From contig CATOTL010000001.1 in assembly GCA_951813545.1 (NCBI GenBank), positions 1 through 64,000 on the forward strand: a stretch of DNA of 64,000 nt, read 5' to 3'. This DNA is from an uncultured Poribacteria bacterium (GTDB lineage Bacteria > Poribacteria > WGA-4E > WGA-3G). Positions within the stretch are counted from its first letter, which is position 1. Every line of letters begins with the position of its first letter. The notes below the pieces were generated by a model. The model was not told the DNA's origin, did no database searches, and worked only from the letters and a program-made list of their open reading frames with translations. A program made the position numbers and the translations under genes. Below, piece by piece: positions 4,961 to 53,889 of this stretch.

Positions 4961-6676
4961 GTGATCGATTTTCCAAAAACATTGCACCAACTTCATTTTT
5001 TTCAAGAAGACGGTGTCCCTTATGCCGCAGACCTCGACAAAGCACGCGTCGTCGAACTCTCGGCTGCGATGCTGGACATCCTAAGGCTCGCCGAGACACA
5101 GACCGATGATGCAATCATCGAAACGCTGAGTGCTTCTTACGAAGCGGACGACATCTCTGAGGCGTTTGAAAGATTCGCCGAACTTGAGAAAGAAGGTTTA
5201 CTCTTCAATCGCGGTGAAGACTTACAGCGGAGCCTCGAGACGGAGAGTAAGTGGCGGAAGTTGCTCGTCGTGATACCCGGCATTGACGTGGATTCGTTTT
5301 TCGATATTGAAACGTTGTCCGCCGGCACGAACATGGCACTTGCCCACATGATTCAGCACCTCACCCAATACGCCGATCTCCATTTTACAGGTTCCCGAAA
5401 CCGGAAGATCGCAGACGGCGTGTATGAAGTCGATATCGGCATTGAGGACTTGGTCCGTCTTCGCTCGAAAATCGCGGAAACCTACTACGGCATCCTGACC
5501 TTACATCAAGAGCACGAACGGTGGCTCCTTCCGCTTTACCGATACCCCGAATTCCCGCCGATTCTCGTTCAGAATCACGCGCCGCGCGGACACGGTGGGC
5601 ATGCGATCAATTCGATGCTCCGACACTACGCCGCCATGCGGGATTATGACGGGTTTACAGCACCTTCGGATTATGTCCGAGACTTTTATTCACAGTATGT
5701 CTGGGATCCGAGTTTCTTCAATACCTTGCCGAACGGTGTCGATGCCACGCTGTTTAAGCCCATGGAGAAGATGGTCGCAAAAAAAGAAATCGCTGCAGAG
5801 GTCGGAGATGAGCGGATTGAAGAAGTCCCGACCGTCGGGTATCTCTCGCGGGTGCAATCGGAAAAAGGCGCATCTGTCTACTTGAAGTTAGCAGAACTGA
5901 ATCCGGATCTGATCTTTTTGATCGCCGGACCGAATCTCGGCAGATATGCCTCACGGAAACTCCCGGACAATCTCGTCTATATCGGGTTCCATCCACGCGA
6001 GAGGCTACCGCTCATCTACAACGCCTTTGATGTCTACTGTTTTATGTCCATGTCAGGTGAGGAGACGTTCGGGTTAACCGTGCTTGAAGCGATGGCGTGT
6101 GGTGTGCCGCCCGTCGTGTCGAACTTCGATGGCGTGCCTTCCGTTGTCGCAGACGCTGGTTTGGTTGCCGATGCCGAGAACTTTGACCGAGACATCGCAA
6201 CGCTTGTGAGTTATCCGTGCCCGGTGGATTTTTCTGAGAAGATTAACATGCTGCTGAATAACACAGAAATGTGGCAGATACTTTCTCAGGCAGCGAGGAA
6301 CCGAGCGGTATCCTTCACGTGGGATAAGACAGCAAACCGGATTGTTCGGATATTTGAGGAACTTCATCGGAAAAAGAAGCTTGTCAATCCGAACAGACTG
6401 CTAAATGTGTTCGCACCGACGCAACCCGTAGAAAGGGAAGCCGAGCAAGGACTAAAATACAGGTCACTCGTGCTGAGTATGAATGAACGCTACGAGCGGT
6501 GTCTCATGCGGGATTCGGTGTATCCGCTGAGCGTTGAGGATGGAGTCGCACTCAGCATCTTGAAAAACCACACGACCAGAGAAGCAGAGACAATCCTCGC
6601 TGACTTAGTCGCAGACGAAACAGAAGCACGGGCGACTCTCAAAAGGGTTCGAGGTTTAATTGATGGAACGGCATGA
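4961..6676 (+). CDS. PqqD-like domain fused to GT4-type glycosyltransferase (PqqD-GT 1)
   Basis: A 571-residue protein. Residues 1-85 resemble PqqD: a leader-binding winged fold with the YAADLDKARVVELSAAMLDIL pattern shortened here to YAADLD...VELS. Residues about 100-480 are a GT-B glycosyltransferase of the GT4 type, with GYLSRVQSEKG (293-303), the nucleotide-sugar EX7E motif Glu368...Glu376 (EETFGLTVLEAMACG) and an acceptor-side HAPRGHGGH segment (207-214). The start is GTG at 4961; an AAGG lies about 13 bases upstream, so the ribosome site is weak, but the N-terminus lines up with the other two copies. PqqD domains bind peptide leaders, so the likely acceptor is one of the Cys-rich peptides nearby. 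Sugar and linkage are unknown. Confidence 0.8.
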   Translation: MIDFPKTLHQLHFFQEDGVPYAADLDKARVVELSAAMLDILRLAETQTDDAIIETLSASYEADDISEAFERFAELEKEGLLFNRGEDLQRSLETESKWRKLLVVIPGIDVDSFFDIETLSAGTNMALAHMIQHLTQYADLHFTGSRNRKIADGVYEVDIGIEDLVRLRSKIAETYYGILTLHQEHERWLLPLYRYPEFPPILVQNHAPRGHGGHAINSMLRHYAAMRDYDGFTAPSDYVRDFYSQYVWDPSFFNTLPNGVDATLFKPMEKMVAKKEIAAEVGDERIEEVPTVGYLSRVQSEKGASVYLKLAELNPDLIFLIAGPNLGRYASRKLPDNLVYIGFHPRERLPLIYNAFDVYCFMSMSGEETFGLTVLEAMACGVPPVVSNFDGVPSVVADAGLVADAENFDRDIATLVSYPCPVDFSEKINMLLNNTEMWQILSQAARNRAVSFTWDKTANRIVRIFEELHRKKKLVNPNRLLNVFAPTQPVEREAEQGLKYRSLVLSMNERYERCLMRDSVYPLSVEDGVALSILKNHTTREAETILADLVADETEARATLKRVRGLIDGTA

Positions 6677-6815
6677 GGAATAGGCATCAGCCATCGGCTG
6701 TCAGTCATCAGCAAGAATAGCCGTCAGCCATCGGCAGTCAGCAAAGAGAAGATTCACAAGCAACTTCTTTCTTTGCCGAGAGCCGAGAGCCGATAGCCAT
6801 TAAAGGAACAAAATT
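6677..6815. repeat. Palindromic intergenic repeat
   Basis: Variants of AGCCATCGGCTGTCAG on the left are repeated in inverted form on the right as TTTGCCGAGAGCCGATAGCC, so the whole spacer between the two glycosyltransferase genes can fold on itself. A partial copy is at about 23898-23925. It resembles the dispersed palindromes of poribacterial and cyanobacterial genomes. Confidence 0.6.
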
Positions 6816-8513
6816 ATGGTATCTCGCACGCATTACCAATTAAAACAGCATCATAAATTTGAACAGGACGACCAAAAATATGTCGCGGACCTTGAAACAG
6901 GCGACATCGTTGAAATAAACGACGTAGAATGGGAGATCCTATCACGTTATGCGTCGCAGACGCGACATCAGATCGTAGAGGGACTGAAGGAGGAACACAA
7001 GTTAACCTCTATTTTTGACGGGATTGAACGTTTAGAACGACTTGGGCAGCAGGGTATCCTTCTAAGCCCGATAGTTGAAGCAGCGGAGTTAATGACTTCA
7101 GACCGAAAGCCGAAGTTATTGGTTCCCTTCCATTTTACGAAAGAGAAATCCGCGTTAGACTACCTCACGAACGTGAACCGCTATCAGTTTCTGACGCATC
7201 TCGCTGAGTTCGCCGAGTTGGAAACCTTAGCTTTCCCTGAGGAAAAGAAAGAAAACGTTCAGGACTTCGACAAGGTTCAGGTTCGGAACATAGAGGACTC
7301 AAAAAACAGTGCCTTAGTATCGCCTTGGTATGCACTTGATGGCTATGACGGCATCCTGCTCCTATCGCAATTCACAACAGACGATTTGCTATACTATGGA
7401 GTGCCAGATGTCCCGATCGTCCACTGCATAGAAGGTGCGCAGCAGCTGCAACACGTGCTGCTGAAAACGCTGCTGACGCTCGGTGCATTCCAAAGTTCAA
7501 AAGATACACTCGTCGTCAAAGCCTCCTGGATGAAGGCGTGGCTCGCCGAATTGGGAGTGCCAGTCGAAAACGTGCAGGTAATCCCTGACGGTATAGATGT
7601 CGTTGAACCGATCAACGATAAGGCATTAGCAAAGCAGCACACCGCCGCCATTTTTGACAAGCCGATGTTTACGAAGCAACCCGTCGTCGGACTGATCTCT
7701 GGATTTGAACCGAATCGTGGCGTGGCGTGGATTTCTGAATTCGCGCGCGCCAACCCGCACCTCGCGATTTTCGTCTATGATGCGATGTTAGTAGGGGTTA
7801 GGTCACCTAACCCCTACCATCCGCCGGAGAATGTCGTTATCTTCAGTGCCGATGATGACGAGACCCGTGCCATTTTACCCGTATTCTTTCAGGCACTCGA
7901 CCTTGTGTGCTTCCCCGCAATGCCGGGCACCCCGCTCTCGGTTGTCTTAGAGGCGATGGCGTCCGGTGTCTCGTGTGTTGCGATGACGAAATACGAGATA
8001 CCCCCGGAAGTCGTAGGTGCTGGGATTGCTGTGGAGGCGGACTGGGATAACTTCGGAAACTTCCATGTCTCGATGGCGAAACTATCGGAGACAATCAACA
8101 AATGGCTGCAGCCCTCCGATGCACGCGCCCAATGCGAAGATTTCGCGAAAGAAGTCGCTCAGCGATATACCCGCAAAAACGCTGCACAAACACTCATCCA
8201 CGTATTTGAAGAAGGCTTTCAACGAAGGACAAGCGATTTCCGGACAGCGCGCGCCCTGTTCCCACCGATCTTCTGTCGTCGGTATGAACCCGACACAGGA
8301 ACACTCAGGTCCAGTGTGTATCGGTTGGGAACGAACAGATATGATAGCCTTGAAGACGCTTTAGCAGAGGTATTAGCTGAAGGGCATACACCCGCTGAAG
8401 TTGCATCCGTTTTCAAGCATTTCCAGCGGAAGCACTCTACTCCCGTTTGCGAGATAACTCGTGCTGGAAATGGGTTTCCTGACAATAATAAGGAAACCAA
8501 CCCCGCTGGGTGA
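6816..8513 (+). CDS. PqqD-like domain fused to a diverged GT4-type glycosyltransferase (PqqD-GT 2)
   Basis: A 565-residue paralogue of the preceding protein. The PqqD-like domain is at 1-85 (KYVADLETGDIVEINDVEWEIL region) and the GT-B fold at about 100-480. The start ATG follows AAGGA at good spacing. The EX7E motif is degenerate: Glu379 is kept (VVLEAMASG) but the first Glu is Gly371. The HAPRGHGGH segment of PqqD-GT 1 is replaced by HCIEGAQQL. This copy may therefore have another donor, be a non-catalytic partner of PqqD-GT 1, or act mainly as a leader-binding chaperone. A palindromic repeat has inserted in frame at codons 326-334. The last ~55 codons and the following leader are duplicated at 10288-10482. 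Confidence 0.75.
   Translation: MVSRTHYQLKQHHKFEQDDQKYVADLETGDIVEINDVEWEILSRYASQTRHQIVEGLKEEHKLTSIFDGIERLERLGQQGILLSPIVEAAELMTSDRKPKLLVPFHFTKEKSALDYLTNVNRYQFLTHLAEFAELETLAFPEEKKENVQDFDKVQVRNIEDSKNSALVSPWYALDGYDGILLLSQFTTDDLLYYGVPDVPIVHCIEGAQQLQHVLLKTLLTLGAFQSSKDTLVVKASWMKAWLAELGVPVENVQVIPDGIDVVEPINDKALAKQHTAAIFDKPMFTKQPVVGLISGFEPNRGVAWISEFARANPHLAIFVYDAMLVGVRSPNPYHPPENVVIFSADDDETRAILPVFFQALDLVCFPAMPGTPLSVVLEAMASGVSCVAMTKYEIPPEVVGAGIAVEADWDNFGNFHVSMAKLSETINKWLQPSDARAQCEDFAKEVAQRYTRKNAAQTLIHVFEEGFQRRTSDFRTARALFPPIFCRRYEPDTGTLRSSVYRLGTNRYDSLEDALAEVLAEGHTPAEVASVFKHFQRKHSTPVCEITRAGNGFPDNNKETNPAG
7791..7817. repeat. Palindromic repeat inserted within the PqqD-GT 2 coding sequence
   Basis: Thirteen-base arms GTAGGGGTTAGGT/ACCTAACCCCTAC surround one central base. 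The same palindrome, or parts of it, is intergenic at 22442, 23641 and 23731. Here it adds nine codons (VGVRSPNPY) without breaking the frame. Confidence 0.85.
8473..8498 (+). promoter_or_regulatory. Leader hairpin upstream of peptide A1
   Basis: GGTTTCCT-N10-AGGAAACC, inside the last codons of PqqD-GT 2 and about 45 bases before the peptide start. Similar hairpins precede A2 (10413-10438) and, with sequence TTCCCAA/TTGGGAA, A3 (16702-16721), A4 (18394-18413) and A5 (20017-20036). Each is followed by a CACCRGCAGAAAGGAG ribosome site, so this is a shared translation or mRNA-stability leader. Confidence 0.55.
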
Positions 8514-8541
8514 GAGCACCGGCAGAAAGGAGAAAACATAG

Positions 8542-8796
8542 ATGAAAACTAACATTCGCGGTAAAATTACGCGATTCCTTGAATCCGAAGACGGACGCGT
8601 CAGTGCGAAGACACCCCTCGCACTGGGTGTCGCAACAGGCGGTCTCCTGTTGGCACATGCCATTGTCGGAACACCACAAGCAGAGGCAGGGTGGTGCAGA
8701 CCTGATGTTGAGGATCCATGCCCTCCTGGTCGGGACTGTCTTGGTCCTTTCATTTTGGTTGACAATATAGTGTGGGGTACATGTATACCGCATTAA
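8542..8796 (+). CDS. Cys-rich precursor peptide A1
   Basis: An 84-residue exported peptide. The basic N-terminus is followed by FLESEDGRV (12-20), a hydrophobic stretch (25-41) and a likely signal-peptidase site AEA|G after residue 49. That leaves a 35-residue core with four Cys, rich in Pro and aromatic residues. AAAGGAG precedes the ATG. The leader is nearly the same in A2-A5 while the cores differ, the pattern expected of RiPP precursors. Residue -1 to Phe12 is Arg, not the Gly of true type IV prepilins. It directly follows a PqqD-GT gene and precedes a propeller gene. Confidence 0.8.
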   Translation: MKTNIRGKITRFLESEDGRVSAKTPLALGVATGGLLLAHAIVGTPQAEAGWCRPDVEDPCPPGRDCLGPFILVDNIVWGTCIPH

Positions 8797-8845
8797 CATT
8801 GTCAAGAGAGGCTGCGGTGTAAACCGCCGCCGTCTCGTTGCCTTT

Positions 8846-8877
8846 TGAGCGTGTGGTGGCTTTTGCCGCCATACGCT
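8846..8877 (+). terminator. Stem-loop between peptide A1 and propeller 1
   Basis: GAGCGTGTGGTGGC-TTTTG-CCGCCATACGCTC forms a strong stem with one mismatch. No T-run follows, so it is more likely a 3' stabiliser or partial attenuator that favours peptide mRNA over the propeller. Every peptide gene in locus 1 has one. Confidence 0.5.
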
Positions 8878-8970
8878 CCTAAACACTTTACATAATGATG
8901 GCTTTTGAATCATTGAGGACGGACGGGACGTGTGCGGTCGGACTGAAAAATGACGATAGGAGAAATAGGT

Positions 8971-9990
8971 ATGAGAGTGGTGTTTATTTTTTGTATAATC
9001 CTGTTGCTGGTGATGTTTTGGGGTGTATATGGGGTTTTAGCCGAAGCGCCGACAACGCCGAAAATCCTGTTTACCTCTGCACGTGATGGCAATTACGAAA
9101 TCTACATGATGAATCCGGATGGCTCCGAACAGGTGAACCTCACGCAGCATCCTGCGACTGATCTGGGTGCGGTGTGGTCTCCGACGGGTGAGCAGATACT
9201 TTTCGTCTCGGATCGCCAAGGCACACGGGTGCGTGATTTGTATTTGATGGACCCTGATGGGGCGAATGTCCAGCGCGTCTTCAAGCGAAAAATAAGGGCT
9301 TGGAGAGGAGATGCGACGTGGTCTCCCGATGGCAAACAGTTTGCTTACTGGTTAGCGGACTGGGATCGTCTCAAGTTCGGTCTCTATCTTGGGACGTTTG
9401 CCGAAGAAGATGCCGAACGCATCGGGAATTATAGTTCCCCGGCGTGGTCTCCTGATGGTTCAGAAATCGCCTGCTCTATAAGTCACGAACAAGAGGCTCG
9501 ACTGACATTTATCAACGTTCGCACACGAGCGGTGGAACAACCGCTACCCAAGAAAGCACTCCGCTGGCAATTCGGTCCGTCCTGGTCTGCTGCGGGAGAC
9601 AGACTTGCGATTTCTGGGAACAAGCATCTGTTGCCGGTGATCTTGGAGAGGGAGCTGCACAACGCATGGGCCGATAAACTGAGTATCTACATTGTCAACC
9701 GCGACGGCACGGGTCTCCGTCAACTTGTTGAGGAAGCCGGTCCCCGTGCAGTTTCTCCTGTATTATCGCCAGACGGCTCGGAAGTGCTTTATACACAAGA
9801 GATCAACGGACAGATCCAAATCTTCAAGATTGATGTGAACACCGGGCTTCGGACGCAGTTGACGCATGTTGGCGGTCCTTTTCGTCAAGCGAATGCTGGC
9901 GGGGATTGGTTTGATCCGGCGTATGCCTTGCCGGTGTCGCCCCAACCGGCGTTGCTAACAACTACTTGGGGGCAACTGAAAAAGAAATAG
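8971..9990 (+). CDS. Secreted TolB/PD40-type beta-propeller 1
   Basis: A 339-residue protein with a signal peptide or anchor (MRVVFIFCIILLLVMFWG...) and repeated WSPDG-type PD40 blades (WSPTG, WSPDG twice, WSAAG, LSPDG), as in TolB and the propeller part of prolyl oligopeptidases. The start at 8971 is chosen because AGGAG lies eight bases upstream; the in-frame ATG 21 bases earlier has none. It is the most diverged propeller of the set. It ends TTTWGQLKKK, a variant of the TTLWGRLK tail of the others. Probable periplasmic or surface binding protein paired with peptide A1; no enzymatic motif seen. Confidence 0.8.
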   Translation: MRVVFIFCIILLLVMFWGVYGVLAEAPTTPKILFTSARDGNYEIYMMNPDGSEQVNLTQHPATDLGAVWSPTGEQILFVSDRQGTRVRDLYLMDPDGANVQRVFKRKIRAWRGDATWSPDGKQFAYWLADWDRLKFGLYLGTFAEEDAERIGNYSSPAWSPDGSEIACSISHEQEARLTFINVRTRAVEQPLPKKALRWQFGPSWSAAGDRLAISGNKHLLPVILERELHNAWADKLSIYIVNRDGTGLRQLVEEAGPRAVSPVLSPDGSEVLYTQEINGQIQIFKIDVNTGLRTQLTHVGGPFRQANAGGDWFDPAYALPVSPQPALLTTTWGQLKKK

Positions 9991-10036
9991 GTTCGGCACC
10001 GCAGTTAGGAAATAGTTATGGCGCATAAGGTTGTTG

Positions 10037-10084
10037 GAGAAGCAGACAACCCTCTGGAGCAAACTCAAGCAAACTGACAAGTAA
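10037..10084 (+). pseudogene. Remnant of a propeller C-terminus
   Basis: Sixteen codons read EKQTTLWSKLKQTDK then stop, matching the C-terminal tail of propeller 2 (EKQTTLWSKLKQSEK). No blades precede it. It is the scar of a lost or displaced peptide-propeller cassette. Confidence 0.75.
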
Positions 10085-10142
10085 AGGCACCTTGCCAATG
10101 ACAGTAGATTCATGAACAGAAGCCAATATCTTTTAACAAATA

Positions 10143-10283
10143 TATAGTAAAACCCGAAAATAAGAGAGCACTTTGGAAAACACAAAACACCTCACCACCG
10201 CTGGCGAGGGGGTTTTTGCTTGGGTGTTTCCGCTAGTATCCTCGCCTCTTTGGAGTGTCTAATTAATTCTAAACTTTACTATA
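10143..10283. mobile_element. 141-bp MITE, copy 2
   Basis: Base for base almost identical to 3002-3142, with the same TATAGTAAA...TTTACTATA ends. It sits between the propeller remnant and the duplicated PqqD-GT 2 tail. Confidence 0.85.
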
Positions 10284-10287
10284 AATA

Positions 10288-10482
10288 CCTTGAAACCGAT
10301 TTGGCAGAGGTATTAGCTGAAGGGCATACACCCGCTGAAGTTGCATCCGTTTTCAAGCATTTCCAGCGGAAGCACTTTACTCCGACTTGCGAGATAACTC
10401 GTGCTGGAAATGGGTTTCCCACGAATAACGAGGAAACCAACCCCGCTGGAAAAGGGCACCAGCAGAAAGGAGAAACCTATAG
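10288..10482 (+). pseudogene. Duplicated 3' end of PqqD-GT 2 plus peptide leader region
   Basis: This 195-bp block matches 8348-8541, covering the last ~55 codons of PqqD-GT 2 and the untranslated leader with hairpin. It encodes no complete protein. It shows that peptide A2 arose by duplication of a segment starting inside the glycosyltransferase gene. Confidence 0.85.
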
Positions 10483-10779
10483 ATGAAGAAAAACATACGC
10501 AGTAAAATTAGTGGCTTCCTCACATCCGAAGAGGGACGTGTCAGCACCAAAGCACCCCTCGCACTTGGGGTCGCAACGGGGAGTGTGTTGTTAGCACAAG
10601 CGATGGTCCCATCCCCAGCTCAGGCTGAGATAGTCTGGGATTTCAGTAACGTTACATGTTTATGGAACTGGCAATGCGATGACGATGCCGGTGAGGTCTG
10701 TGCATTTTGGGATTTTACACATCAGCCAGGCCCAACTATAGAAGTGCATTCCGCTTGCATCATCCCACCGGATGATTGA
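10483..10779 (+). CDS. Cys-rich precursor peptide A2
   Basis: A 98-residue peptide with the shared leader: basic 1-9, GFLTSEEGRV (11-20), hydrophobic 24-42, and AQA|E cleavage after 48. The 50-residue core has four Cys and several Trp and Phe residues. AAAGGAG precedes the ATG. The residue before Phe12 is Gly and Glu16 is at +5, which matches the type IV prepilin cleavage pattern, but this Gly is not kept in A1 or A5. It is followed by a strong hairpin and propeller 2. Confidence 0.8.
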   Translation: MKKNIRSKISGFLTSEEGRVSTKAPLALGVATGSVLLAQAMVPSPAQAEIVWDFSNVTCLWNWQCDDDAGEVCAFWDFTHQPGPTIEVHSACIIPPDD

Positions 10780-10799
10780 TACCAGTGATTCATCCATTT

Positions 10800-10833
10800 C
10801 GGTCAGTCCCGATTTTTTGAGCGGGACTGACCG
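10800..10833 (+). terminator. Stem-loop between peptide A2 and propeller 2
   Basis: Perfect 12-bp stem CGGTCAGTCCCG/CGGGACTGACCG around a T-rich loop of ten bases. No T-run follows, so full termination is not assured. Confidence 0.6.
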
Positions 10834-10910
10834 ACAGCAAATCGTGCAGAAAATCTGTGGAACTCGTTTCTTTCACTTTTTATTAACTGAGATAGGAGGG
10901 ATTTGTTAAT

Positions 10911-11924
10911 ATGAAACGCACCCGCACTTATGTGGTGTTAGGAGTAGCGTTCTTGCTAAATAGCAGTCTGTTCGTCAGTAACGGTTGGGCGATTGAAAGG
11001 GATGTCCTCTCTTTTGTTACGAGAAAAGACAGGGGACGTTCTATCCAACTCATAAATACCCAAGGCGAATTCCTTCAAACACTGATGGTAGAAGGACCTA
11101 TAGCCCACTTCACTTGGTCCCCTGACGGACGCTCGATTGCCTACAGTTCCAATCGCAATGGGGATCCTGATATTTATGTAATGGATGTAAAAACGGATAC
11201 ACATCGGCGGTTAACCTTTGATGATGGGAGGGATTGGTGGCCCTCGTGGTCGCCGAATGGGAAATGGATCGCATTCGCCTCAAATCGCGCAGGGGAGATA
11301 GACCTCTACAGAATGGATGCGAATGGAGAAAACGTCAAGCGGCTGACGAACCAAGGCGACTGCAAAGAACCTGCCTGGTCCCCGGACAGTCAACGGATCG
11401 CCTTTATTTCAAAATCTGCTCTTTTTGTGATGACTGCTGAGGGAAAAGGGGTGCGGCGGCTCGCAGATACATTTTCTACCGGATGCGCGTGGTCCCCTGA
11501 CGGTAAAGAGATTGCTTTTGTTCCACGAGGAGATGCTGTCGGAGGGAAGGCTCTTTTTAGTATTAACAGAGATGGCAAAAACATGCGGCAACTTACCCAG
11601 TTGTATAAAGGACTCGTAGCAATCTTTGAACCTACATGGTCGCCGAGTGGAAAATGGATCGCCTATCTTTTAGTTCAACCACCAGAAAAACTCCTTGAGG
11701 GGCAAGTGGTTCTGGCAGAAGAGTTTTTTGCTAACTCAGTCATTTGTATCGCGAATACAGCAGACCGTGGCGGTGGAGAACCAATTGAAGCCACGAGAAG
11801 ATTGGTAGCTAGTCTTAAGTGGGCACCGGAGGGATTTCTCTCAGTATCACCGAGCGCGGAGAAGCAGACAACCCTCTGGAGCAAACTCAAGCAATCTGAA
11901 AAGTATAGTAAAACCAAAAAATAA
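10911..11924 (+). CDS. Secreted TolB/PD40-type beta-propeller 2
   Basis: A 337-residue protein with a signal peptide ending near NGWA (residue 27) and about five to six PD40 blades (WSPDGRSIAY, WSPNGKWIAF, WSPDSQRIAF, WSPDGKEIAF, WSPSGKWIAY). AGGAGGG precedes the ATG. The C-terminus carries SVSPSAEKQTTLWSKLKQ followed by a basic tail. It pairs with peptide A2 and is followed by a GGCGGGGTT hairpin with a short T-run. Probably a periplasmic or outer-surface binding module; the ligand is unknown. Confidence 0.85.
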   Translation: MKRTRTYVVLGVAFLLNSSLFVSNGWAIERDVLSFVTRKDRGRSIQLINTQGEFLQTLMVEGPIAHFTWSPDGRSIAYSSNRNGDPDIYVMDVKTDTHRRLTFDDGRDWWPSWSPNGKWIAFASNRAGEIDLYRMDANGENVKRLTNQGDCKEPAWSPDSQRIAFISKSALFVMTAEGKGVRRLADTFSTGCAWSPDGKEIAFVPRGDAVGGKALFSINRDGKNMRQLTQLYKGLVAIFEPTWSPSGKWIAYLLVQPPEKLLEGQVVLAEEFFANSVICIANTADRGGGEPIEATRRLVASLKWAPEGFLSVSPSAEKQTTLWSKLKQSEKYSKTKK

Positions 11925-11960
11925 GTTACATTTTAGAGAACGACAAACCTTTCCTTCGCT

Positions 11961-11985
11961 GGCGGGGTTTGGAACCCCGCCTTTT
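11961..11985 (+). terminator. Probable terminator after propeller 2
   Basis: GGCGGGGTT-TG-GAACCCCGCC followed by TTTTAT. The same palindrome without the T-run occurs at 56306-56326 before the second methyltransferase gene, so it is also a dispersed repeat. Confidence 0.6.
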
Positions 11986-12036
11986 ATAGGTGTATCGTTA
12001 AATTGTAGGTTTTGTTTATAAATGGAAGACATCTCA

Positions 12037-12933: not shown

Positions 12934-13186
12934 AAAACGTGAGTTCGATTAATTTCAAGAAATCCCTATTTTTCTGCGAGTTTGACACAGGTACCCAACG
13001 CCCAAAAAAGGGACCAAAGACACTAAAAACGCAGCCCCAGCGGGGCGATATGTTTATAGATACATTATACACCCGAAGACCTAAGCCCCAGCGGGGCGGC
13101 ATCTGTAAGAGCATCTGAAAAGAATCTTCAGATATTTCTATCAATGCCAATCGATTACAAGAGAGCTCTTAACAGCATCCAACGTT
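12934..13186. other. Intergenic with GCCCC-AGC-GGGGC palindromes
   Basis: Two copies of AGCCCCAGCGGGGCG, near 13033 and 13085, lie in an otherwise featureless spacer. No gene is seen. Confidence 0.5.
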
Positions 13187-13303
13187 TATAGTAAAATCCA
13201 AAAATATGTGGACGGTTGTTCGGTGAACGAACCTCCACAGCCGCTGGCGAGGATTGTATCCTCGCCTCCCCGCGGTGTCCAAGTAATTGTGGATTTTACC
13301 ATA
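13187..13303. mobile_element. MITE variant, 117 bp
   Basis: It has TATAGTAAAATCC at the left, GGATTTTACCATA at the right, and the core palindrome GGCGAGGAT-TGT-ATCCTCGCC. It is a diverged relative of the 141-bp MITE and extends the open frame upstream of the peptidase gene artificially. Confidence 0.7.
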
Positions 13304-13332
13304 GTATATCAACGAAAGGTTTTTATTATACG

Positions 13333-16588: not shown

Positions 16589-16769
16589 TCCGAGCGTATG
16601 AAACACCATTTGAAATTATGATCTTTTGAAAAGCCATTAGAAAGTATGTCCAAGAGGAGAGCTTCACTTCGACAACAATAGTATTCGTCCTGGAGATGGT
16701 GTTCCCAACACTGTTTGGGAATCCAATCTTGCTGGAACAGAAGCACCGGCAGAAAGGAGATAAACCGAT
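16559..16769 (+). promoter_or_regulatory. Peptide A3 leader, founder of a duplicated block
   Basis: The block starts inside the last codons of the cytochrome gene (TTACGGGCGAGTGGAACGCC) and runs through the TTCCCAA/TTGGGAA hairpin (16702-16721) to the peptide start. It is repeated before A4 from 18251 (almost identical) and before A5 from 19904 (partly diverged). No clear -35/-10 promoter is visible. Confidence 0.6.
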
Positions 16770-17036
16770 ATGAAAAACAACGTCCGTAGTAAAATCAGTG
16801 GCTTCCTCAAGTCTGAGGAGGGACGCGTTGGTGTTAAATCACCCTTGACAGTGGGTGTCGCAAGCGCAGGTTTGTTGCTCGCACATACAATGATTGCCCC
16901 CTCCGCGCAGGCACATATAGAATGTGATCCTGATAAGCCTAATTCTTGTGAAGGGAGTTTCGTTTGTAAAGGATGGTGTGTCCATTGGGTTGACGACACT
17001 TGTATAGTGAAGGAAGCTCATTGCGAATGGGCTTAG
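16770..17036 (+). CDS. Cys-rich precursor peptide A3
   Basis: An 88-residue peptide with shared leader (GFLKSEEGRV at 11-20, hydrophobic 24-42, AQA|H after 48). The 40-residue core has six Cys spaced C-x7-C-x5-C-x3-C-x7-C-x6-C, with two Trp in a GWCVHW stretch. AAAGGAG precedes the ATG. The even number of cysteines suits disulfide bonding or S-linked modification. It is followed by a hairpin and propeller 3. Confidence 0.82.
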   Translation: MKNNVRSKISGFLKSEEGRVGVKSPLTVGVASAGLLLAHTMIAPSAQAHIECDPDKPNSCEGSFVCKGWCVHWVDDTCIVKEAHCEWA

Positions 17037-17071
17037 GTTAAGGATATGTTGATTTATTGACTATCCATTTC

Positions 17072-17104
17072 TGGCGGTTCACTGTCTCTGACACAGAACC
17101 GCCA
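17072..17104 (+). terminator. Stem-loop after peptide A3
   Basis: TGGCGGTTC/GAACCGCCA stem of nine bases around a 15-base loop; a near copy follows A5 (20395-20427). No T-run. Confidence 0.5.
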
Positions 17105-17292
17105 TTCCAGAAGCCTTGAAAGAAATATCAAAGAAGCAGATAACTCTCTTAGCTCTTAGGCAGAAAATTTGAAACGTTGAGTTTCTAAAATAAAATCTGA
17201 AAATGTGTTGACACTTTACGAAACAATGGCCTTTCTATCGCTGATAGGGTTGCTAACCGCGGTCCCCAACCGAAATAGGAGGATTTGTGAAC

Positions 17293-18228
17293 ATGAAACG
17301 CACGCGAACTTACGAGGTATTAGGGATGGCGATATTGCTAGGTAGTTGTCTATTCATCAGCAGTAACTGGGCAGCTACGCGGGATGTCCTCTCTTTTGTT
17401 TCTTTAAAAAAAGATAAAACGCGCCCCATTATTCTTATGGATACCCAAGAGAAGATCCTCCAAAGACTCGTTATCCCTGGTCTGAGACCACTATCTTTCA
17501 GTTGGTCCCCTGATGGACGCTCATTTACTTATCACACCAACGAAGGCGGGAACTTTGACATTTATGTGATGGATGTGGAAACGCAGACGCACCGTCAATT
17601 GACTTTTGATGGTGGCAGAGATATATGGCCCGCCTGGTCTCCGAATGGAAAATGGATTTCGTTCGCCTCAAACCGCGCTGGAACGTCCGACTTTTATAGA
17701 ATAGATATAGATGGCGGAAATTTGATGAAATTGACAGACGGACAAGACTATGATAAAACCGCTTGGTCCCCAGACAGTCAATGGATCGCATTTACTTCAA
17801 GAGGCTCCCTTTTTGTGATGAATGCTGAAGGGAAAAGGTTAAGAAGGCTCGCGGGGAGTGCCAACAGTGTTGACTGCACATGGTCCCCGGATGGCAAACA
17901 GATCGCTTTCTCCTCAAACAGGGATATTTTCAGCATTGACCTAAATGGAAGGAACCTCCGCCAACTCACGCCGATTGATCAACGAGCATGGGATCTTGAG
18001 TGGTCGCCGAGTGGAGAATGGATCGCCTATCGTGTGAGAGATATATTGGGTGATTTGGTCATCGGGGTCGTAAACACAATAGATAATAAGCGTGGAGGAG
18101 TGCTTGAAACAACAAGAGGATTGGTGCCTAGTCATCTTGATTGGGTGCCGGAGGGATTCCTCTCTGTATCACCGAGTGCAGAGAAGCAGACAACACTCTG
18201 GGGTAGACTCAAACAAAAAGTAGATTAA
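17293..18228 (+). CDS. Secreted TolB/PD40-type beta-propeller 3
   Basis: A 311-residue propeller with an N-terminal signal (MKRTRTYEVLGMAILLGSCLF...) closely related to that of propeller 2. The PD40 blades are WSPDGRSFTY, WSPNGKWISF, WSPDSQWIAF, WSPDGKQIAF and WSPSGEWIAY. AGGAGG precedes both a GTG and the ATG at 17293; I prefer the ATG because spacing and N-terminus then match propeller 2. The tail is SVSPSAEKQTTLWGRLKQKVD. It pairs with peptide A3. Confidence 0.85.
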   Translation: MKRTRTYEVLGMAILLGSCLFISSNWAATRDVLSFVSLKKDKTRPIILMDTQEKILQRLVIPGLRPLSFSWSPDGRSFTYHTNEGGNFDIYVMDVETQTHRQLTFDGGRDIWPAWSPNGKWISFASNRAGTSDFYRIDIDGGNLMKLTDGQDYDKTAWSPDSQWIAFTSRGSLFVMNAEGKRLRRLAGSANSVDCTWSPDGKQIAFSSNRDIFSIDLNGRNLRQLTPIDQRAWDLEWSPSGEWIAYRVRDILGDLVIGVVNTIDNKRGGVLETTRGLVPSHLDWVPEGFLSVSPSAEKQTTLWGRLKQKVD

Positions 18229-18250
18229 TAGATTCCGCGCGAGTCAGTTG

Positions 18251-18461
18251 TTACGGGCGAGTGGAACGCCCTGTCAATAATCCGAGCGTATGAAACACCA
18301 TTTGAAATTATGATCTTTTGAAAAGCCATTAGAAAGTATGTCCAAGAGGAGAGCTTCACTTCGACAACAATAGTATTCGTCCTGGAGATGGTGTTCCCAA
18401 CACTGTTTGGGAATCCAATCTTGCTGGAACAGAAGCACCGGCAGAAAGGAGATAAACCGAT
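18251..18461 (+). promoter_or_regulatory. Duplicated leader before peptide A4
   Basis: Nearly identical to 16559-16769, including the stray end of the cytochrome coding sequence (LRASGTPCQ codons) and the TTCCCAA/TTGGGAA hairpin at 18394-18413. The identity continues into the first ~20 codons of the peptide, showing a recent duplication. Confidence 0.75.
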
Positions 18462-18731
18462 ATGAAAAACAACGTCCGTAGTAAAATCAGTGGCTTCCTC
18501 AAGTCTGAGGAGGGACGTGTAAGTGTCAAGGCACCCCTCGCAATAGGTGTCGCAAGTGGGAGTTTGTTGTTAGCACAAGCAATGTCGCCCACCAATGCGC
18601 AGGCACATTTTGAGTGTTTCTGGGATCTTGATTGCGATGAGGGAGAAATCTGTCTATTTTGGTGTGATGACTGGTCTCCATTTGTTAATATGTGTATGGG
18701 AGACTGGCACTCAGCGTGTGTTGCTCACTAA
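18462..18731 (+). CDS. Cys-rich precursor peptide A4
   Basis: An 89-residue peptide whose first 20 residues are identical to A3. The AQA|H cleavage after 48 leaves a 41-residue core with six Cys (C-x5-C-x5-C-x3-C-x9-C-x7-C) and three Trp. The core is unlike A3 except for the cysteine frame, so leader conservation with core divergence is very clear in this pair. It pairs with propeller 4. Confidence 0.82.
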   Translation: MKNNVRSKISGFLKSEEGRVSVKAPLAIGVASGSLLLAQAMSPTNAQAHFECFWDLDCDEGEICLFWCDDWSPFVNMCMGDWHSACVAH

Positions 18732-18753
18732 ATTCATCAACCCATCTATTGTC

Positions 18754-18785
18754 GTCGGTCCTGCTGTTTCTTCAGCGGGATCGAC
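18754..18785 (+). terminator. Stem-loop after peptide A4
   Basis: GTCGGTCCTGCTG-TTTCTT-CAGCGGGATCGAC forms a 13-bp stem with G-U pairs, a few bases before the propeller ribosome site; a CTTTC follows. Confidence 0.5.
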
Positions 18786-18813
18786 CTTTCAGTATTTTTT
18801 CAAGGAGCTTACT

Positions 18814-19881
18814 ATGAAGTTTCCAACGATTGATACTTTCCCCGTTTTGATAAAACGGAATCTTGCATGTACAATGCTTGGGATTGTGCTGATGTTTGGT
18901 TATAGTCTATTCTTTATAAATACTTGGACACAAGCCGCTGAGTTTGGAACTCTGGCGTTTGCTTCCAATCAAATGGGGAACACTGATATCTATATCCTAA
19001 ACAAAGATGATGAAAATCTCCATAGACTCACAAATGATCCGGCACGTGAGTCCGAGCCAGCGTGGTCGCCTGATGGTCGTTTTTTAGCGTATACCTACAA
19101 CTCAGATATCTATGTGATAAACACAAGAACAAAAGAACACCGTCAACTGACACATAATCTCGTTGATGATTATTTTCCTGCCTGGTCGCCCAATGGCAAA
19201 TGGATTGCGTTTGTTTCTGGCAGTCACGGACAGAACATGGACATCTACAGAATGGATATTGATGGCACAAATCTGAGGCGATTGACCGATCGCGGAAAAA
19301 ACGGACGGCCCACTTGGTCTCCAGACAGCCAATGGATTGCCTTTACCTCTTACCAGCGCGGTGCTGATAGAAAAGGTATTTATGTGATGGATGCCGATGG
19401 GAGAAGATTGAGGCGAATTAATGATAAAGAGGTACAGGCACTCAAGGGTATCTTTCAAGGTGAGTGTGCCTGGTCGCCCGATGGAAAACAGATCGCTTTT
19501 GGTCTCCATATCCCTGATCAGAAGCGAATGCACCTATGTACCATTGACGTAGATGGCAAAAACTTTCGCCAACTCACACAAGGCGGTCCCATAGTGAGAC
19601 CTATGAAGGTATTGGGCTTTCCGAATCCCGCCATTTATTATCCTGCTTGGTCACCTGATAGTAAATGGATCGCTTATGTTTTTTCAGATGATCCATCGCC
19701 GCTCCAATCTGCTGACATCTATGTTATAGACGCGAAGGGAAACGGACGCGGGACACCGCTTGTAAAGGAGGCAGGACAGGATCTATCTCCAGCATGGGCT
19801 CCAGAAGGGTTTCTCTCTATATCACCGAGTGCAGAGAAGCAGACAACACTCTGGGGTAGACTCAAACAAAAAGTAGATTAA
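18814..19881 (+). CDS. Secreted TolB/PD40-type beta-propeller 4
   Basis: A 355-residue propeller. The start at 18814 is taken because AAGGAG lies seven bases upstream; the open frame upstream overlaps peptide A4 and is not coding. The N-terminal signal anchor is followed by six PD40 blades (WSPDGRFLAY, WSPNGKWIAF, WSPDSQWIAF, WSPDGKQIAF, WSPDSKWIAY and others). The tail SISPSAEKQTTLWGRLKQKVD is the same as in propeller 3, and the next 60 bases are also shared, in line with cassette duplication. Confidence 0.85.
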   Translation: MKFPTIDTFPVLIKRNLACTMLGIVLMFGYSLFFINTWTQAAEFGTLAFASNQMGNTDIYILNKDDENLHRLTNDPARESEPAWSPDGRFLAYTYNSDIYVINTRTKEHRQLTHNLVDDYFPAWSPNGKWIAFVSGSHGQNMDIYRMDIDGTNLRRLTDRGKNGRPTWSPDSQWIAFTSYQRGADRKGIYVMDADGRRLRRINDKEVQALKGIFQGECAWSPDGKQIAFGLHIPDQKRMHLCTIDVDGKNFRQLTQGGPIVRPMKVLGFPNPAIYYPAWSPDSKWIAYVFSDDPSPLQSADIYVIDAKGNGRGTPLVKEAGQDLSPAWAPEGFLSISPSAEKQTTLWGRLKQKVD

Positions 19882-20084
19882 TAGATTCCGCGCGAGTCAG
19901 TTGTTACGGGCGAGTGGAACGCCCTGTCAGTAGTTTCAGATCGAAAATCCATTAGAGAGCATGTCCAGGGGGAGGGCTTCACTCCCGCAACGATAGTATT
20001 CGTCCTGGAGATGGTGTTCCCAACACTGTTTGGGAATCCAATCTTGCCGGAACAGAAGCACCGGCAGAAAGGAGAAACCCATAG

Positions 20085-20351
20085 ATGAAAAATAACATCC
20101 GCGGTAAAATCAGCGACTTCCTCACATCTGAAGAAGGACATGTTGGTGTCAAACCACCGTTGGTATTGGGTGCAGCAAGCGCAGGTTTGTTGCTCGCTCA
20201 GGCAATGGTTACGTCCTCCGCGCAAGCACATTACAAGTGTTATCCTGGTGGTTGCCCGGAGGGTAAGTATTGTCATATCTTCTGTGACAAGTGGCGTGTC
20301 GGCACCTGTATAGGGACCTGGCACAGCCACTGCAGACCACTTGATTCTTGA
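20085..20351 (+). CDS. Cys-rich precursor peptide A5
   Basis: An 88-residue peptide with the shared leader (DFLTSEEGHV at 11-20, AQA|H after 48) and a 40-residue core with six Cys (C-x4-C-x5-C-x3-C-x7-C-x7-C). The core frame resembles A3 and A4. It has no propeller downstream; the phosphohexomutase gene follows after a hairpin. The residue before Phe12 is Asp, against cleavage by a standard prepilin peptidase at that point. Confidence 0.8.
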   Translation: MKNNIRGKISDFLTSEEGHVGVKPPLVLGAASAGLLLAQAMVTSSAQAHYKCYPGGCPEGKYCHIFCDKWRVGTCIGTWHSHCRPLDS

Positions 20352-20394
20352 TCGGATTGTCTAAGGATTCATTAATTTATTGACAATCCGTTTC

Positions 20395-20427
20395 TGGCGG
20401 TTCGCCGTCTCTGACAGGGAACCGCCA
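20395..20427 (+). terminator. Stem-loop after peptide A5
   Basis: TGGCGGTTC...GGAACCGCCA stem-loop, near copy of 17072-17104, about 20 bases before the phosphohexomutase start. Confidence 0.5.
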
Positions 20428-20447
20428 TTTCCAAAATAGAGTTTCCT

Positions 20448-21908
20448 ATGAATCTTGAAATCTTCAAAGCGTATGATATCCGTGGTATCTTCGGTGTGGA
20501 TTTTGAACCGAAAGACTTTTACGGAATCGCCTGTGCGTATGCCAACTGCTTTCACCCGAAAACCGTCGCAGTTGGACACGATGTCCGAGAGAGTTCACCA
20601 CAATTGTGGCAGCAGGTCGCTGCGGGTTTTCAGGATTCAGGGGTCAATGTCCTGAATCTCGGTCAGATTTCAACAGATATGCTCTATTTCGCCGTGGCGC
20701 ATTACCAGGCAGATGGCGGAGTTACAATCTCGGCATCTCATAATCCAGCTATGTATAACGGTATGAAATTAGTCCGCCAGCATGGCGTACCACTCTCTGC
20801 TGATACGGGAATCTTTAAGGTGCGCGACGCTGTTAAAAACGGGATCGCATTTGAGAAACAGAATGGACACGACTCGGGAACCTGTCGGTCAATACAGTTC
20901 CTGGATGCCTACCTATCACACCTCCGCTCGTTTGTGGATTTAGGGCAGCTGTCTAAAAATCGGATCGTTATCAACGCCAACGGTGGACTTGCGGGACAGA
21001 TTGCTGAACGTTTGTTGGCGGACACACCGATTCAGGTGTGCGAGCACCTGTTTGTAGAACCAGATGGGAGTTTCGCACAGATTCCGGCAGGGCGACCGGA
21101 CCCATTGCGACCAGAGAACCGAGAACTTACCACAGAAGCAGTTCGGCAGACAGGCGCGGACTTGGCAGTGGCATGGGATGCCGATGCTGATCGATGTTTC
21201 TTCTTTGATGAAACTGGGGCGTTTGTGGAAGGCTGCTATATCACCGCACTGCTCGCCGAGTGCCTCCTTCAGCGCGAAGATGGCGGTGGTGTCATCTTTG
21301 ATCCGAGAGCCGTCTGGGCAGTAGAGAACGCTGTCATCTCCGCTGGGGGCATACCAATTCTCAACCGGTGCGGACACTCATTTATCAAGGCACGCATGCG
21401 AAAGACGGGCGCGCTTTTCGCCGGAGAGGCGAGCGGGCACTACTATTTCCGAGACAACTTCTATGCCGATAACGGCATGATCCCCTTTCTGATGGTGCTT
21501 GAATATTTGAGTGTAATTAGGACTTCACTGGCTGAATCTGTCAACCACCTGCGCTCGGAATATCCCGTCTCCGGTGAAATCAACTTTTCATTTGAAACTG
21601 ATGAGCAAATCCGAGATGCATTGGATGCCATCAATGATACGCTACAGTGTTGGAGAAATCCGTGTATTGAAGCACCAATTGATGGTTTATCTATCAGGTT
21701 TCTATCAGGTGCTGGCAAGCCGGGACGTGACAGTTGGCGGTTTAATCTCCGGGAATCAAACACAGAACCGTTATTACGTCTGAACGTGGAAACTCTCGCG
21801 AACGAGGACCTTCTCATTGAAAAGACGGTGAAAATCAGTGAGAAACTCGAAGGCATCGGAGGCAAGCGAGAGACAAAATTCCGATGGGAATCCGAAAATT
21901 CTACATAA
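20448..21908 (+). CDS. Phosphomannomutase/phosphoglucomutase-type phosphohexomutase
   Basis: A 486-residue alpha-D-phosphohexomutase. It has AYDIRG at 8-13, the phosphoserine loop TISASHNP (Ser97), the metal loop DADADR (Asp244, 246, 248), the sugar loop GEASGHYYF and the phosphate loop RESNTEPLLRL. It interconverts hexose 6- and 1-phosphates, the first step to GDP-mannose or UDP-glucose. Its place after the peptide cassettes suggests that it feeds the glycosyltransferases, though housekeeping use is equally possible. Length is slightly above the usual 450-460. Confidence 0.88.
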   Translation: MNLEIFKAYDIRGIFGVDFEPKDFYGIACAYANCFHPKTVAVGHDVRESSPQLWQQVAAGFQDSGVNVLNLGQISTDMLYFAVAHYQADGGVTISASHNPAMYNGMKLVRQHGVPLSADTGIFKVRDAVKNGIAFEKQNGHDSGTCRSIQFLDAYLSHLRSFVDLGQLSKNRIVINANGGLAGQIAERLLADTPIQVCEHLFVEPDGSFAQIPAGRPDPLRPENRELTTEAVRQTGADLAVAWDADADRCFFFDETGAFVEGCYITALLAECLLQREDGGGVIFDPRAVWAVENAVISAGGIPILNRCGHSFIKARMRKTGALFAGEASGHYYFRDNFYADNGMIPFLMVLEYLSVIRTSLAESVNHLRSEYPVSGEINFSFETDEQIRDALDAINDTLQCWRNPCIEAPIDGLSIRFLSGAGKPGRDSWRFNLRESNTEPLLRLNVETLANEDLLIEKTVKISEKLEGIGGKRETKFRWESENST

Positions 21909-22551
21909 AACGCGAGAATTTGAACAATTTTCTTTGAATTTCTCTATTTTTTGTCATATTATGCACGAATTCAAAAAAAAATGGTCTTTAAAGGTCAAAT
22001 TATTAACTATCAGTCTTCAGTTATCAGTTAAGGGGAAATTTGATTAAACAGAACATCTATTAACTGACCACCGAGTACTGATAACTGACAACGAATACCT
22101 ACTTTAGACGTGTGTTTGATATATAGCAAATTCTAAACATAAACAGGCATTTTCGTAGGGGTGTTTTTGATGGGGTATTTCTTATAGGTCACCATAGGTG
22201 TCAATTTAGAGGTTTTTCGCCTTATTTCGTCGTGGCTCTTCTACAGATGCCGCCCCTACGGGGCTTGGGTCTGTGAGGTCCTGTTTTTTTACACAGATGT
22301 CGTCCCTACGGGACTAAAGAAGGTTTCTGGCATGTACAAAGTTTATGGCTAAAACCCGGCGCAGTTGGAAACAGCGCCTACCGGATCTGGGACTACAACG
22401 GTTATTTTTTCTAAAATTGACACTTATGGGGTATTTCTTATAGGTCACCTAACCCTACGGGCTTACCCTAAAAAAATACGTTGGTTAAAATTATGCAACA
22501 TACCCTGACTCTAATTTTTAACGGAAAATAGGTCGGAGATGCAGGAGACAA
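21909..22551. repeat. Intergenic repeats, no gene
   Basis: Contents in order: one arm of the 4646-4909 inverted repeat (about 21949-21997); TTATCAGTTA/ACTGATAACTGACAAC repeats (22010-22095); a direct repeat of TGGGGTATTTCTTATAGGTCACC (22172 and 22432); palindromes of the GCCGCCCCTACGGGGC and CCGGCGCAGTT-N-AACAGCGCCTACCGG types. I see no coding sequence. Confidence 0.65.
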
Positions 22552-23583
22552 ATGAAAATTCTAATTGCTGGGTTGGGCTCTATCGGGCGACGCCATCTGC
22601 GAAACTTGCGGGATCTGAATATTGAAGAGTTGGTGCTATTACGCTCTGGACGCGCCACACTTTCTGACGATGAACTCGCAGGGTTTCCAACTGAACGAGA
22701 CATCACAGAGGCACTTCAACGGCACCAGCCTGATGCTGTGGTTGTTTCCAATCCGACCTCACTTCATCTTGATGTTGCTATTCCTGCGGCGGAAGTTGGC
22801 TGTCATCTGTTATTAGAGAAACCGATTTCCCATACAATGGAGCGGGTCCCTATTTTGGCGAACATTGTACAACAGAAAAATCTCAAGGTACTCACCGGTT
22901 TCCAATTTCGATTTCACCCAGGTTTACAACACATCAAGCAACTTCTTGACAGTGACGGAATCGGTGCCGTGACATCTGTAGAGGCACACTGGGGTGAATA
23001 TCTACCCGGATGGCATCCTTGGGAAGACCATCGCGCAGGGTATGCCGCACGCGAAGACCTCGGCGGCGGAGTCCTACTGACACTTTGCCACCCTTTTGAC
23101 TACCTCCGATGGCTCATTGGGGAGATTCAGAGCGTCTCGGCAATGACAGCACAACAGGGCGGTTTAAACATCCAAGTCGAGGACACAGCGAACACGATGT
23201 TTCGATTTGAAAATGGCGCACTCGGCACGGTGCATCTTGATTATATCCAACGTCCACCGACACACACCTTGCAGATTACGGGGCAACACGGACGTATCCT
23301 GTGGGATAACACCGACGGTGAAGTCCACTGGTACCAGGACAAAACAGAAACATGGCAAACGGAGACTTTTCACAAGGGACCGAACGGTTTTGATCGCAAC
23401 ACACTTTTCCTTCAAGAGATGAAACATTTCATCGACTGCATTGAAAATGATACCGACCCATGCGTTAATCTCACAGACGGAATTGCTGCGCTTCAACTTG
23501 TACTTGCTGCGAAAGCATCATCCTCTCAACAGAGAGAGATCACTTATCCTCACGCTGAGCGTAAAAAAGATGGGGTGGGCTAA
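22552..23583 (+). CDS. Gfo/Idh/MocA-family NAD(P)-dependent sugar oxidoreductase
   Basis: A 343-residue protein with the Rossmann motif GLGSIG (7-12), SNPTSLH and the catalytic-type EKP (89-91), then the C-terminal alpha/beta domain with GGGVLLTLCHPFDYLRWL. AGGAG precedes the ATG. The family oxidises or reduces sugars and cyclitols, often in nucleotide-sugar or inositol pathways. It could modify the sugar used by locus 1, but 640 bp of repeats separate it from the mutase, so it may be an independent gene. Confidence 0.85.
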   Translation: MKILIAGLGSIGRRHLRNLRDLNIEELVLLRSGRATLSDDELAGFPTERDITEALQRHQPDAVVVSNPTSLHLDVAIPAAEVGCHLLLEKPISHTMERVPILANIVQQKNLKVLTGFQFRFHPGLQHIKQLLDSDGIGAVTSVEAHWGEYLPGWHPWEDHRAGYAAREDLGGGVLLTLCHPFDYLRWLIGEIQSVSAMTAQQGGLNIQVEDTANTMFRFENGALGTVHLDYIQRPPTHTLQITGQHGRILWDNTDGEVHWYQDKTETWQTETFHKGPNGFDRNTLFLQEMKHFIDCIENDTDPCVNLTDGIAALQLVLAAKASSSQQREITYPHAERKKDGVG

Positions 23584-44624: not shown

Positions 44625-44664
44625 GTGATAGACCCCGCCCTAAAGGGCGAGGCTTCTGCAATCG

Positions 44665-53875: not shown

Positions 53876-53889
53876 ATGAGGTATATCTA

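Follow-up and report, generated by a model that had tools for sequence, protein, structure and literature searches.

Paired GT4-fold proteins with leader-recognition domains beside Cys-rich peptides in Poribacteria: a predicted RiPP-like glycosylation system

We analysed the first 64 kb (the window hereafter, 64,000 nucleotides) of a 288,641-base contig, CATOTL010000001.1, from an uncultured Poribacteria bacterium with a 6.1 Mb genome in three contigs. We found a locus (4961..21908) that resembles those making ribosomally synthesized and post-translationally modified peptides (RiPPs), and in which two tandem proteins, GT1 and GT2, join an N-terminal RiPP recognition element (RRE) to a glycosyltransferase (GT) fold of family GT4 and stand before a set of leader-bearing, Cys-rich peptides. 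According to the open reading frame (ORF) list and the profile searches, every gene of this locus lies on the + strand, in the order GT1, GT2, peptide A1, propeller, A2, propeller, methyltransferase, A24 peptidase, UshA-like/cytochrome c554/DsbA-like protein, A3, propeller, A4, propeller, A5 and phosphomannomutase-family enzyme. Of the readings that we weighed, we somewhat favour the one in which the GT4-fold pair grips the shared leader by its RREs and puts a sugar, possibly mannose, on the Cys-rich cores. A first-pass annotation, made from the letters of the same DNA, had proposed that the peptides are glycosylated on the core before export; the ORFs lie where it placed them and its observation was confirmed as a whole, while its interpretation is partly supported.

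The first-pass annotation described both proteins as fusions of a PqqD-like domain to a GT4-type glycosyltransferase. For the N-termini, profile searches recovered a match to the RRE family in both proteins: the family profiles of GT1 (residues 9-96) and GT2 (residues 11-95) match the N-terminus of 5wgg/5why with E values of 3.5e-10 and 2.8e-9, respectively. The structure 5wgg is that of CteB, whose RRE binds its own leader as an added strand (PMC6231123). The match to PqqD itself (PF05402) is weak, being found for 21 of 83 alignment members with a best E of 0.012, and residues 10-82 of GT2 match the radical SAM maturase model NF040492 at E 8.6e-5, far under the cut-off of that model. Furthermore, the N-termini of GT1 and GT2 are homologous to each other (hhalign probability 98), and in the predicted structures this block consists of three main strands and three helices with a predicted local distance difference test score (pLDDT) of 76-92. 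Because the Foldseek matches of the GT1 and GT2 models, among the best 50 per search, all cover the GT part, the RRE assignment rests on sequence profiles and secondary structure. Collectively, these profile matches indicate that the N-terminal domain of both fusions is a relative of the RRE with which CteB binds its leader, and in the sense that this domain is present they qualify as enzymes with a RiPP-type leader-recognition domain. We considered the C-terminal domain of GT1, of beta-beta-alpha-alpha-alpha type (two strands and two helices in GT2), as a second RRE and rejected it, with an hhalign probability <1% against the N-terminal domains in shallow alignments. In 8 of the 9 genomes tested, both where the system is present and where it is absent, a short open frame encodes a PqqD above cut-off, which we regard as unrelated to the system.

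We then compared the GT parts of the two proteins. GT1 is a clear GT4 protein (PF00534, E 1.7e-24), and GT2 a weak one (E 3.4e-5, below the curated cut-off); among the best 50 Foldseek matches of each, both models match the GT4 enzymes MshA, PimA, BshA and GlgM, with GtfA at rank 45 for the GT1 model. We scored the positions that we take to be the donor-site Arg and Lys and the EX7E motif of GT4 enzymes in 34 tandem pairs, which comprise the window and the fetched loci, include a near-identical duplicate of the window pair (L036) and leave aside six solo GTs and one middle GT. The first protein carries R297, K302, E368, G371 and E376 in 34 of 34 pairs. In the second protein, R297 is replaced by Gly, the Lys at 302 is absent, E368 is replaced by Pro or Ser and a gap falls at G371, all in 34 of 34, and E376 is retained in 31. 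Accordingly, GT1 combines the GT-B fold with the full residue set, while GT2 matches the fold and has lost the Arg, the Lys and the first Glu. This pattern argues that only the first GT can be catalytic and that the second looks like a pseudo-glycosyltransferase, a difference that the first-pass annotation, correct on the fold of both, had left unremarked.

The peptides show the leader and core pattern of RiPP precursors. The five that had been noted in the locus (A1 to A5) do share one leader ahead of divergent Cys-rich cores, and two more, B1 and B2, were added from a second locus in the window. All seven have the invariant residues K8, F12, E16, G18 and V20 followed by a hydrophobic stretch, and by inspection each leader ends in an AxA site; a loose AxA pattern is found in 72 of 86 peptides. 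The sequence CCGGCAGAAAGGAGA precedes all five peptides of the main locus with at most one mismatch, and with up to two mismatches it has 7 matches in the window against 0.13 expected. At E 0.01 the peptide profile matches 639 protein clusters. For the 61 type I peptides that the loci provide, identity averages 63.4% in the leader versus 36.2% in the core, the leader being the more conserved part in 1806 of 1830 pairs, so that an encoded precursor with conserved leader and variable core stands beside the putative modifying enzymes. DNA repeats suggest how this diversity arose: the 3' end of GT2 together with a leader was copied in front of A2 (84% over 326 columns), and the flanks of A3 and A4 were copied at 92%, therefore cassettes multiply and cores diverge.

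The cores, which were collapsed at 70% similarity after placing cleavage sites by pattern, also bear on where a sugar might be attached. Of the 72 collapsed type I cores, 68 contain a Cys immediately preceded by Ser or Thr. This [ST]C pattern occurs in 0 of 4 cores of loci that have peptides and no GT, all of them 4-Cys cores, an absence that would agree with the loss of an acceptor, in four related sequences only. The richness in Cys and the odd Cys number in 7 of the 72 cores would suit S-glycosylation of core Cys, as in some glycocins. We consider such chemistry improbable, since Cys counts are mostly even (65 of 72) and the type III cores of three GT-bearing loci are free of Cys; in addition, glycocin glycosyltransferases of the SunS/GccA type belong to glycosyltransferase family 2, and the enzymes here belong to GT4.

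Next we consider the link between GTs and peptides across the phylum. In searches of 84 genomes of the phylum, in which matches with internal stops were counted as matches, GT1 (E 1e-20) was found in 33 and the peptides (E 1e-3) in 40. All 33 GT genomes have peptides; of the 51 others, 44 have neither and 7 have peptides alone (Fisher p 7.6e-17, with genomes treated as independent, which they are not), and one of these seven (G038) carries a GT2 fragment at a contig end. The first-pass annotation had proposed a profile search of the N-termini and a neighbourhood survey for such fusions next to EEGxV-leader peptides, and both checks came out in its favour, the association being phylum-wide. At the level of loci, for which 40 neighbourhoods were picked from the hits by place and all tallies therefore describe a non-random sample, a peptide gene lies in the fetched stretch for 33 of 34 pairs, on the same strand in 33 of 33, within 3 kb of the pair in 27 and within 1 kb in 23. 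For one pair, at L077 (2945), the nearest peptide is 11.4 kb off, and L054 has no peptide in this tally, though the genome profile search places one on its contig. The clade of the GT follows the type of leader (I, II, III, V and VI, as defined by our own patterns), even when two types share a contig (L074), with L040, where a GT pair of 36% identity stands next to type I leaders, as the sole exception.

This linkage has to be weighed against the alternative that the GT pair acts on another substrate, such as a propeller, the UshA-like protein or a surface glycan, and that the RRE-like domain binds something other than a leader. A propeller does lie directly downstream of 46 of 88 peptide genes scored (a tally without A4 of the window, owing to an ORF-overlap rule), and peptide loci that lack GTs exist, as does a lack of RRE-specific covariation with the leader (see below). 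However, besides the association in 33 of 33 genomes and the close spacing, with A1 beginning 29 bases past the end of GT2, three loci (L072, L073 and L078) have GTs and peptides and no propeller match, and the related RRE whose structure is known binds a leader. We thus judge another substrate unlikely.

Under the leader-guided reading, the best account predicts that, guided by the RREs, the core is O-glycosylated, perhaps mannosylated, before it leaves by Sec; for this account we infer each chemical step, the donor, the acceptor and the order of events. The precursor would be bound in the cytoplasm through its K-x3-F-x3-E-x-G-x-V leader, and GT1 would transfer the sugar with GT2 as a non-catalytic, substrate-holding partner, like GtfB for GtfA. 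The donor could be supplied by the phosphomannomutase, together with a sugar-1-phosphate nucleotidyltransferase whose cluster is present in seven loci. Two nucleotidyltransferases that were tested are closest to mannose-1-phosphate and D-manno-heptose-1-phosphate guanylyltransferases, under the cut-offs of these models, and because of these closest models and that of the mutase a GDP-manno-type donor may be guessed. The methyltransferase may cap the sugar or the peptide, and the glycosylated precursor would exit by Sec. The leader might be removed by signal peptidase at AxA and/or by the A24 peptidase near the invariant Gly, the DsbA-like/multihaem protein might oxidize the cysteines, a role that fits oxidative folding of exported peptides, and the propellers would be likely extracellular partners of the mature peptide.

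The A24-family protein is a candidate leader peptidase beside the ordinary signal peptidase. Its profile match is weak in the window copy (E 0.024) and above the Pfam cut-off in the copies of L059 and L069, and the window copy has both Asp motifs of A24 prepilin peptidases. Overall, 36 of 40 copies have both motifs, and four, including the truncated one of the second locus, are N-terminally short. The variant occurs in 38 of 84 genomes, 35 of which have peptides, that is, in 35 of the 40 peptide genomes. The intact Asp motifs, the way A24 tracks the peptides, the invariant Gly of the seven window leaders and their presumed resemblance to Flp leaders raise the alternative of a pilin-like pathway, in which A24 cleaves a class III (prepilin/Flp-like) leader behind EEG to yield glycosylated surface structures. 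Such a pathway is very improbable here: the window leaders lack a Glu at +5 from the Gly, their hydrophobic stretch begins well downstream, AxA sites precede the core, Cys-rich cores are unlike pilins, and no pilus assembly gene was found among the Pfam-scanned locus proteins.

Several observations weigh against leader-guided glycosylation. Across the 17 loci in which a full 41-residue leader lies no more than 6.5 kb away, L036 having been dropped, RRE distance correlates with leader distance (r 0.82, p 0.0005), but once GT-domain distance is controlled for, the partial r falls to 0.10 (p 0.23), while GT-domain distance against leader, controlled for RRE distance, gives a partial r of 0.42 (without significance value). 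The signal of RRE-leader coevolution that we sought is thus not independent of GT-domain divergence, and because the latter explains the correlation, it points to co-inheritance of modules and not to co-adaptation of an interface. Moreover, GT, methyltransferase and mutase are all missing from four loci (L059-L062) that retain the peptide, with the same EEGKVG leader, and the propeller, A24 and UshA-like genes, which argues that the leader cannot serve the GT alone. In GT-bearing stretches, the methyltransferase is found in 18 of 34 and the mutase in 17 of 34. The five type III peptides of L072, L073 and L078 have short Cys-free cores and low match scores, and one of them (L072, 13691) has no Ser, Thr or Cys past the presumed cleavage site. 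The [ST]C pattern could be structural, and the predicted models of GT1 and GT2 are moderate overall (mean pLDDT 69.8 and 71.5).

The loci without GTs also fit an alternative in which the products are plain Sec-exported disulfide miniproteins, the leader being kept for A24 and export and glycosylation being an optional later addition in some lineages. All four of these loci retain the peptide, propeller, A24 and UshA-like set, and the presence of A24 in most peptide genomes, the predominance of even Cys numbers and the frequent AxA sites agree with it. But it leaves unexplained why an RRE is conserved on both GTs and why peptides accompany the GTs in every GT genome, and we would not expect it to be correct.

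A broader proposal is that the locus represents a new class of glycosylated RiPP, in which an active/dead GT4 heterodimer, each partner with its own RRE, would add sugars to hypervariable cystine-rich peptides before Sec export, the leader would act at once as RRE tag, export signal and A24 substrate, the peptides would be paired with their own extracellular propellers, and cassette duplication would build large arsenals across Poribacteria. We put this forward tentatively, with more doubt than confidence. As to spread, a search from which 79 loci were taken from the best of 426 confirmed found that all matches among these 79 that reach the RRE (query residue 50 or lower) are titled Poribacteria. 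A Latescibacterota locus matching residues 115-570 has, among its ORFs, no peptide match better than E 2.6. In that phylum, L108:764-3568 encodes a 253-residue protein with an RRE-like N-terminus by eye, upstream of a GT1-related transferase without RRE, which is followed by an ABC-transporter-like gene (by eye).

Compared with known systems, the arrangement shares with CteB and other radical SAM/SPASM maturases an N-terminal RRE, homologous by profile, and an adjacent precursor with conserved leader and variable core; unlike in these maturases, the RRE sits on a GT4-fold protein and the leader continues into a hydrophobic stretch and an AxA site. Fusions of RREs to glycosyltransferases as such have been in print since 2020, when RRE-Finder named them as one kind of possible new cluster (PMC7470986), and a 2025 paper mentions glycosyltransferases of PF00535 that bear a fused RRE (PMC12710340). 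These have the same domain idea and were flagged as possible new RiPP enzymes, but the available passages of both papers describe no GT pair and no such peptide family, a term search of both texts gave no Poribacteria, and the 2025 fusions are PF00535 whereas those here are PF00534; overlap with figure S7 of the 2020 paper is possible. In the biosynthesis of serine-rich repeat adhesins (PMC6973325), GtfA transfers O-GlcNAc and GtfB chaperones the acceptor, so that, before export, one GT protein transfers and the other binds the acceptor. The pair described here, one member of catalytic type and one not in all 34 cases, looks like such an active GT and pseudo-GT couple, to judge from its residues, yet DUF1975 had no Pfam match in GT1 or GT2, the passages on GtfA/GtfB mention no RRE, and the acceptor there is a Ser/Thr-rich adhesin repeat instead of a small Cys-rich peptide.

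Glycocins likewise are small, Cys-rich, leader-bearing peptides with a dedicated GT and disulfides, and their leaders are removed by a C39 peptidase-ABC transporter (PMC12457901). Here, by contrast, we find a GT4 pair with RREs, PF00534 and GT4 structural neighbours in place of a family 2 enzyme, an AxA export-type leader, and no C39 peptidase-ABC transporter among the scanned locus proteins, the rest of the genome not having been searched. Bacteroidales RiPP clusters with glycosyltransferases are mentioned in PMC10352776, in the passages of which no RRE-GT fusion appears. In the literature on Poribacteria together with RiPPs, PqqD or peptide glycosyltransferases, and in that on RRE-GT fusions in general, most subscription journals lying outside the search, no description of the pair with these peptides was found. 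Taken together, this is a RiPP-like system with a new enzyme arrangement. If the glycosylation reading is true, leader-guided glycosylation by a two-protein GT4 machine would be added to RiPP biosynthesis, in a phylum for which the literature found describes no RiPP of such sort; it would open a way, amenable to testing, to cystine-rich miniproteins that carry sugars and have interchangeable cores, and would be a case of a pseudo-glycosyltransferase with its own domain of leader-binding type.

The features of the window are collected in Table 1. Ten locus proteins were scanned with Pfam and ten with NCBIfam, and none among these is a radical SAM enzyme, YcaO, LanM or peptidase-containing ABC transporter, in line with the absence noted at first pass. 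The partners listed by the first-pass annotation proved real for the methyltransferase, the cytochrome c554/DsbA-like protein, the phosphomannomutase-family enzyme and the Gfo/Idh protein, with the reservation that the A24 match is weak by profile in the window and that the Gfo/Idh gene does not belong to the conserved locus, since of 44 stretches surveyed just 2, the window and the duplicate of the window, gave a match.

Table 1. Coordinates of the main locus, a neighbouring gene and the second locus in the window
Feature	Position	Strand	Remarks
GT1: RRE (about residues 9-85) + GT4	4961..6676	+	catalytic-type residues R297, K302, E368, E376 kept
GT2: RRE (about residues 10-85) + GT4-fold pseudo-glycosyltransferase (putative)	6816..8513	+	Arg to Gly; Lys lost; first Glu of EX7E lost with two-column gap
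Peptide A1: leader + AxA + 4-Cys core	8542..8796	+	
PD40 beta-propeller 1, predicted secreted	8950..9990	+	PF07676 E 2.3e-20; signal peptide by eye
GT2 3'-end remnant preceding A2	10285..10482	+	10285-10608 vs 8344-8667, 84% identity; cassette-duplication trace
Peptide A2	10483..10779	+	
PD40 beta-propeller 2, predicted secreted	10911..11924	+	Pfam
Class I SAM methyltransferase	12022..12933	+	PF08241 E 5.1e-22
A24 prepilin-peptidase-family membrane protein	13333..14469	+	both catalytic-type Asp present; start set from relatives
UshA-like / cytochrome c554 / DsbA-like multidomain protein	14726..16588	+	Pfam, NCBIfam
Peptide A3	16770..17036	+	
PD40 beta-propeller 3, predicted secreted	17287..18228	+	Pfam
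Peptide A4	18462..18731	+	
PD40-like beta-propeller 4	18814..19881	+	start moved from 18595
Peptide A5	20085..20351	+	
Phosphomannomutase-family enzyme	20448..21908	+	closest model CpsG, E 1e-111, under that model's cut-off
Gfo/Idh protein	22552-23583		real by Pfam
GT1-family protein cut short	43646..44668	+	then TnpB-like gene (by eye)
A24-family protein, C-terminal part	46032..46814	+	without Asp motifs
Peptide B1	48388..48714	+	8 Cys
Peptide B2	50251..50574	+	8 Cys
UshA-like / cytochrome / DsbA-like protein, second locus	54231..56249	+	
Methyltransferase, second locus	56368..57294	+	

In other loci the neighbours include kelch, laminin-G or 3-keto-disaccharide-hydrolase-like proteins, and in L072 a transglutaminase-like protein and an ABC-2 permease are encoded as well. 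The C-termini of propellers (e.g. 19800-19881 and 48100-48168) share a tail such as SAEKQTTLWGRLKQ, which may be a sorting signal; a related tail was found in 31 of 75 propellers by a regular expression that missed TTTWG forms. An extracytoplasmic function (ECF) sigma factor fused to a large BNR/sortilin-like propeller lies at 24010-26946, and its single-linkage cluster has members in 24 of 43 fetched stretches, including all four without GT.

A second, decayed copy of the locus, which the first-pass annotation does not mention, spans 43646-57294 and consists of a truncated GT, the C-terminal part of A24, five propellers, two 8-Cys peptides with the related leader RFIMGEEGKVGSQ, a UshA-like protein and a methyltransferase. 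Furthermore, contig C2:235349-272031 is about 99% identical to window positions 1-33921 and carries one extra peptide-propeller cassette. A contig-end artefact was considered as the source of this copy; the match stops at window 33921 and contig 272031. Given this end point, the divergence of about 1% and the extra cassette, a segmental duplication is more likely, although merged haplotypes could also have produced such a copy.

Four TnpB-like genes were seen by eye in the window, at 668-1981 (- strand), 3367-4497, 35106-36236 and 44665-45879 (- strand), those at 3367 and 35106 being nearly identical. At 33000 and 41974 there are two sigma-factor-like ORFs that resemble each other, and by eye the ORFs at 37729-38499, 40358-41110 and 57976-58512 have near-identical N-terminal halves and differing C-terminal halves.

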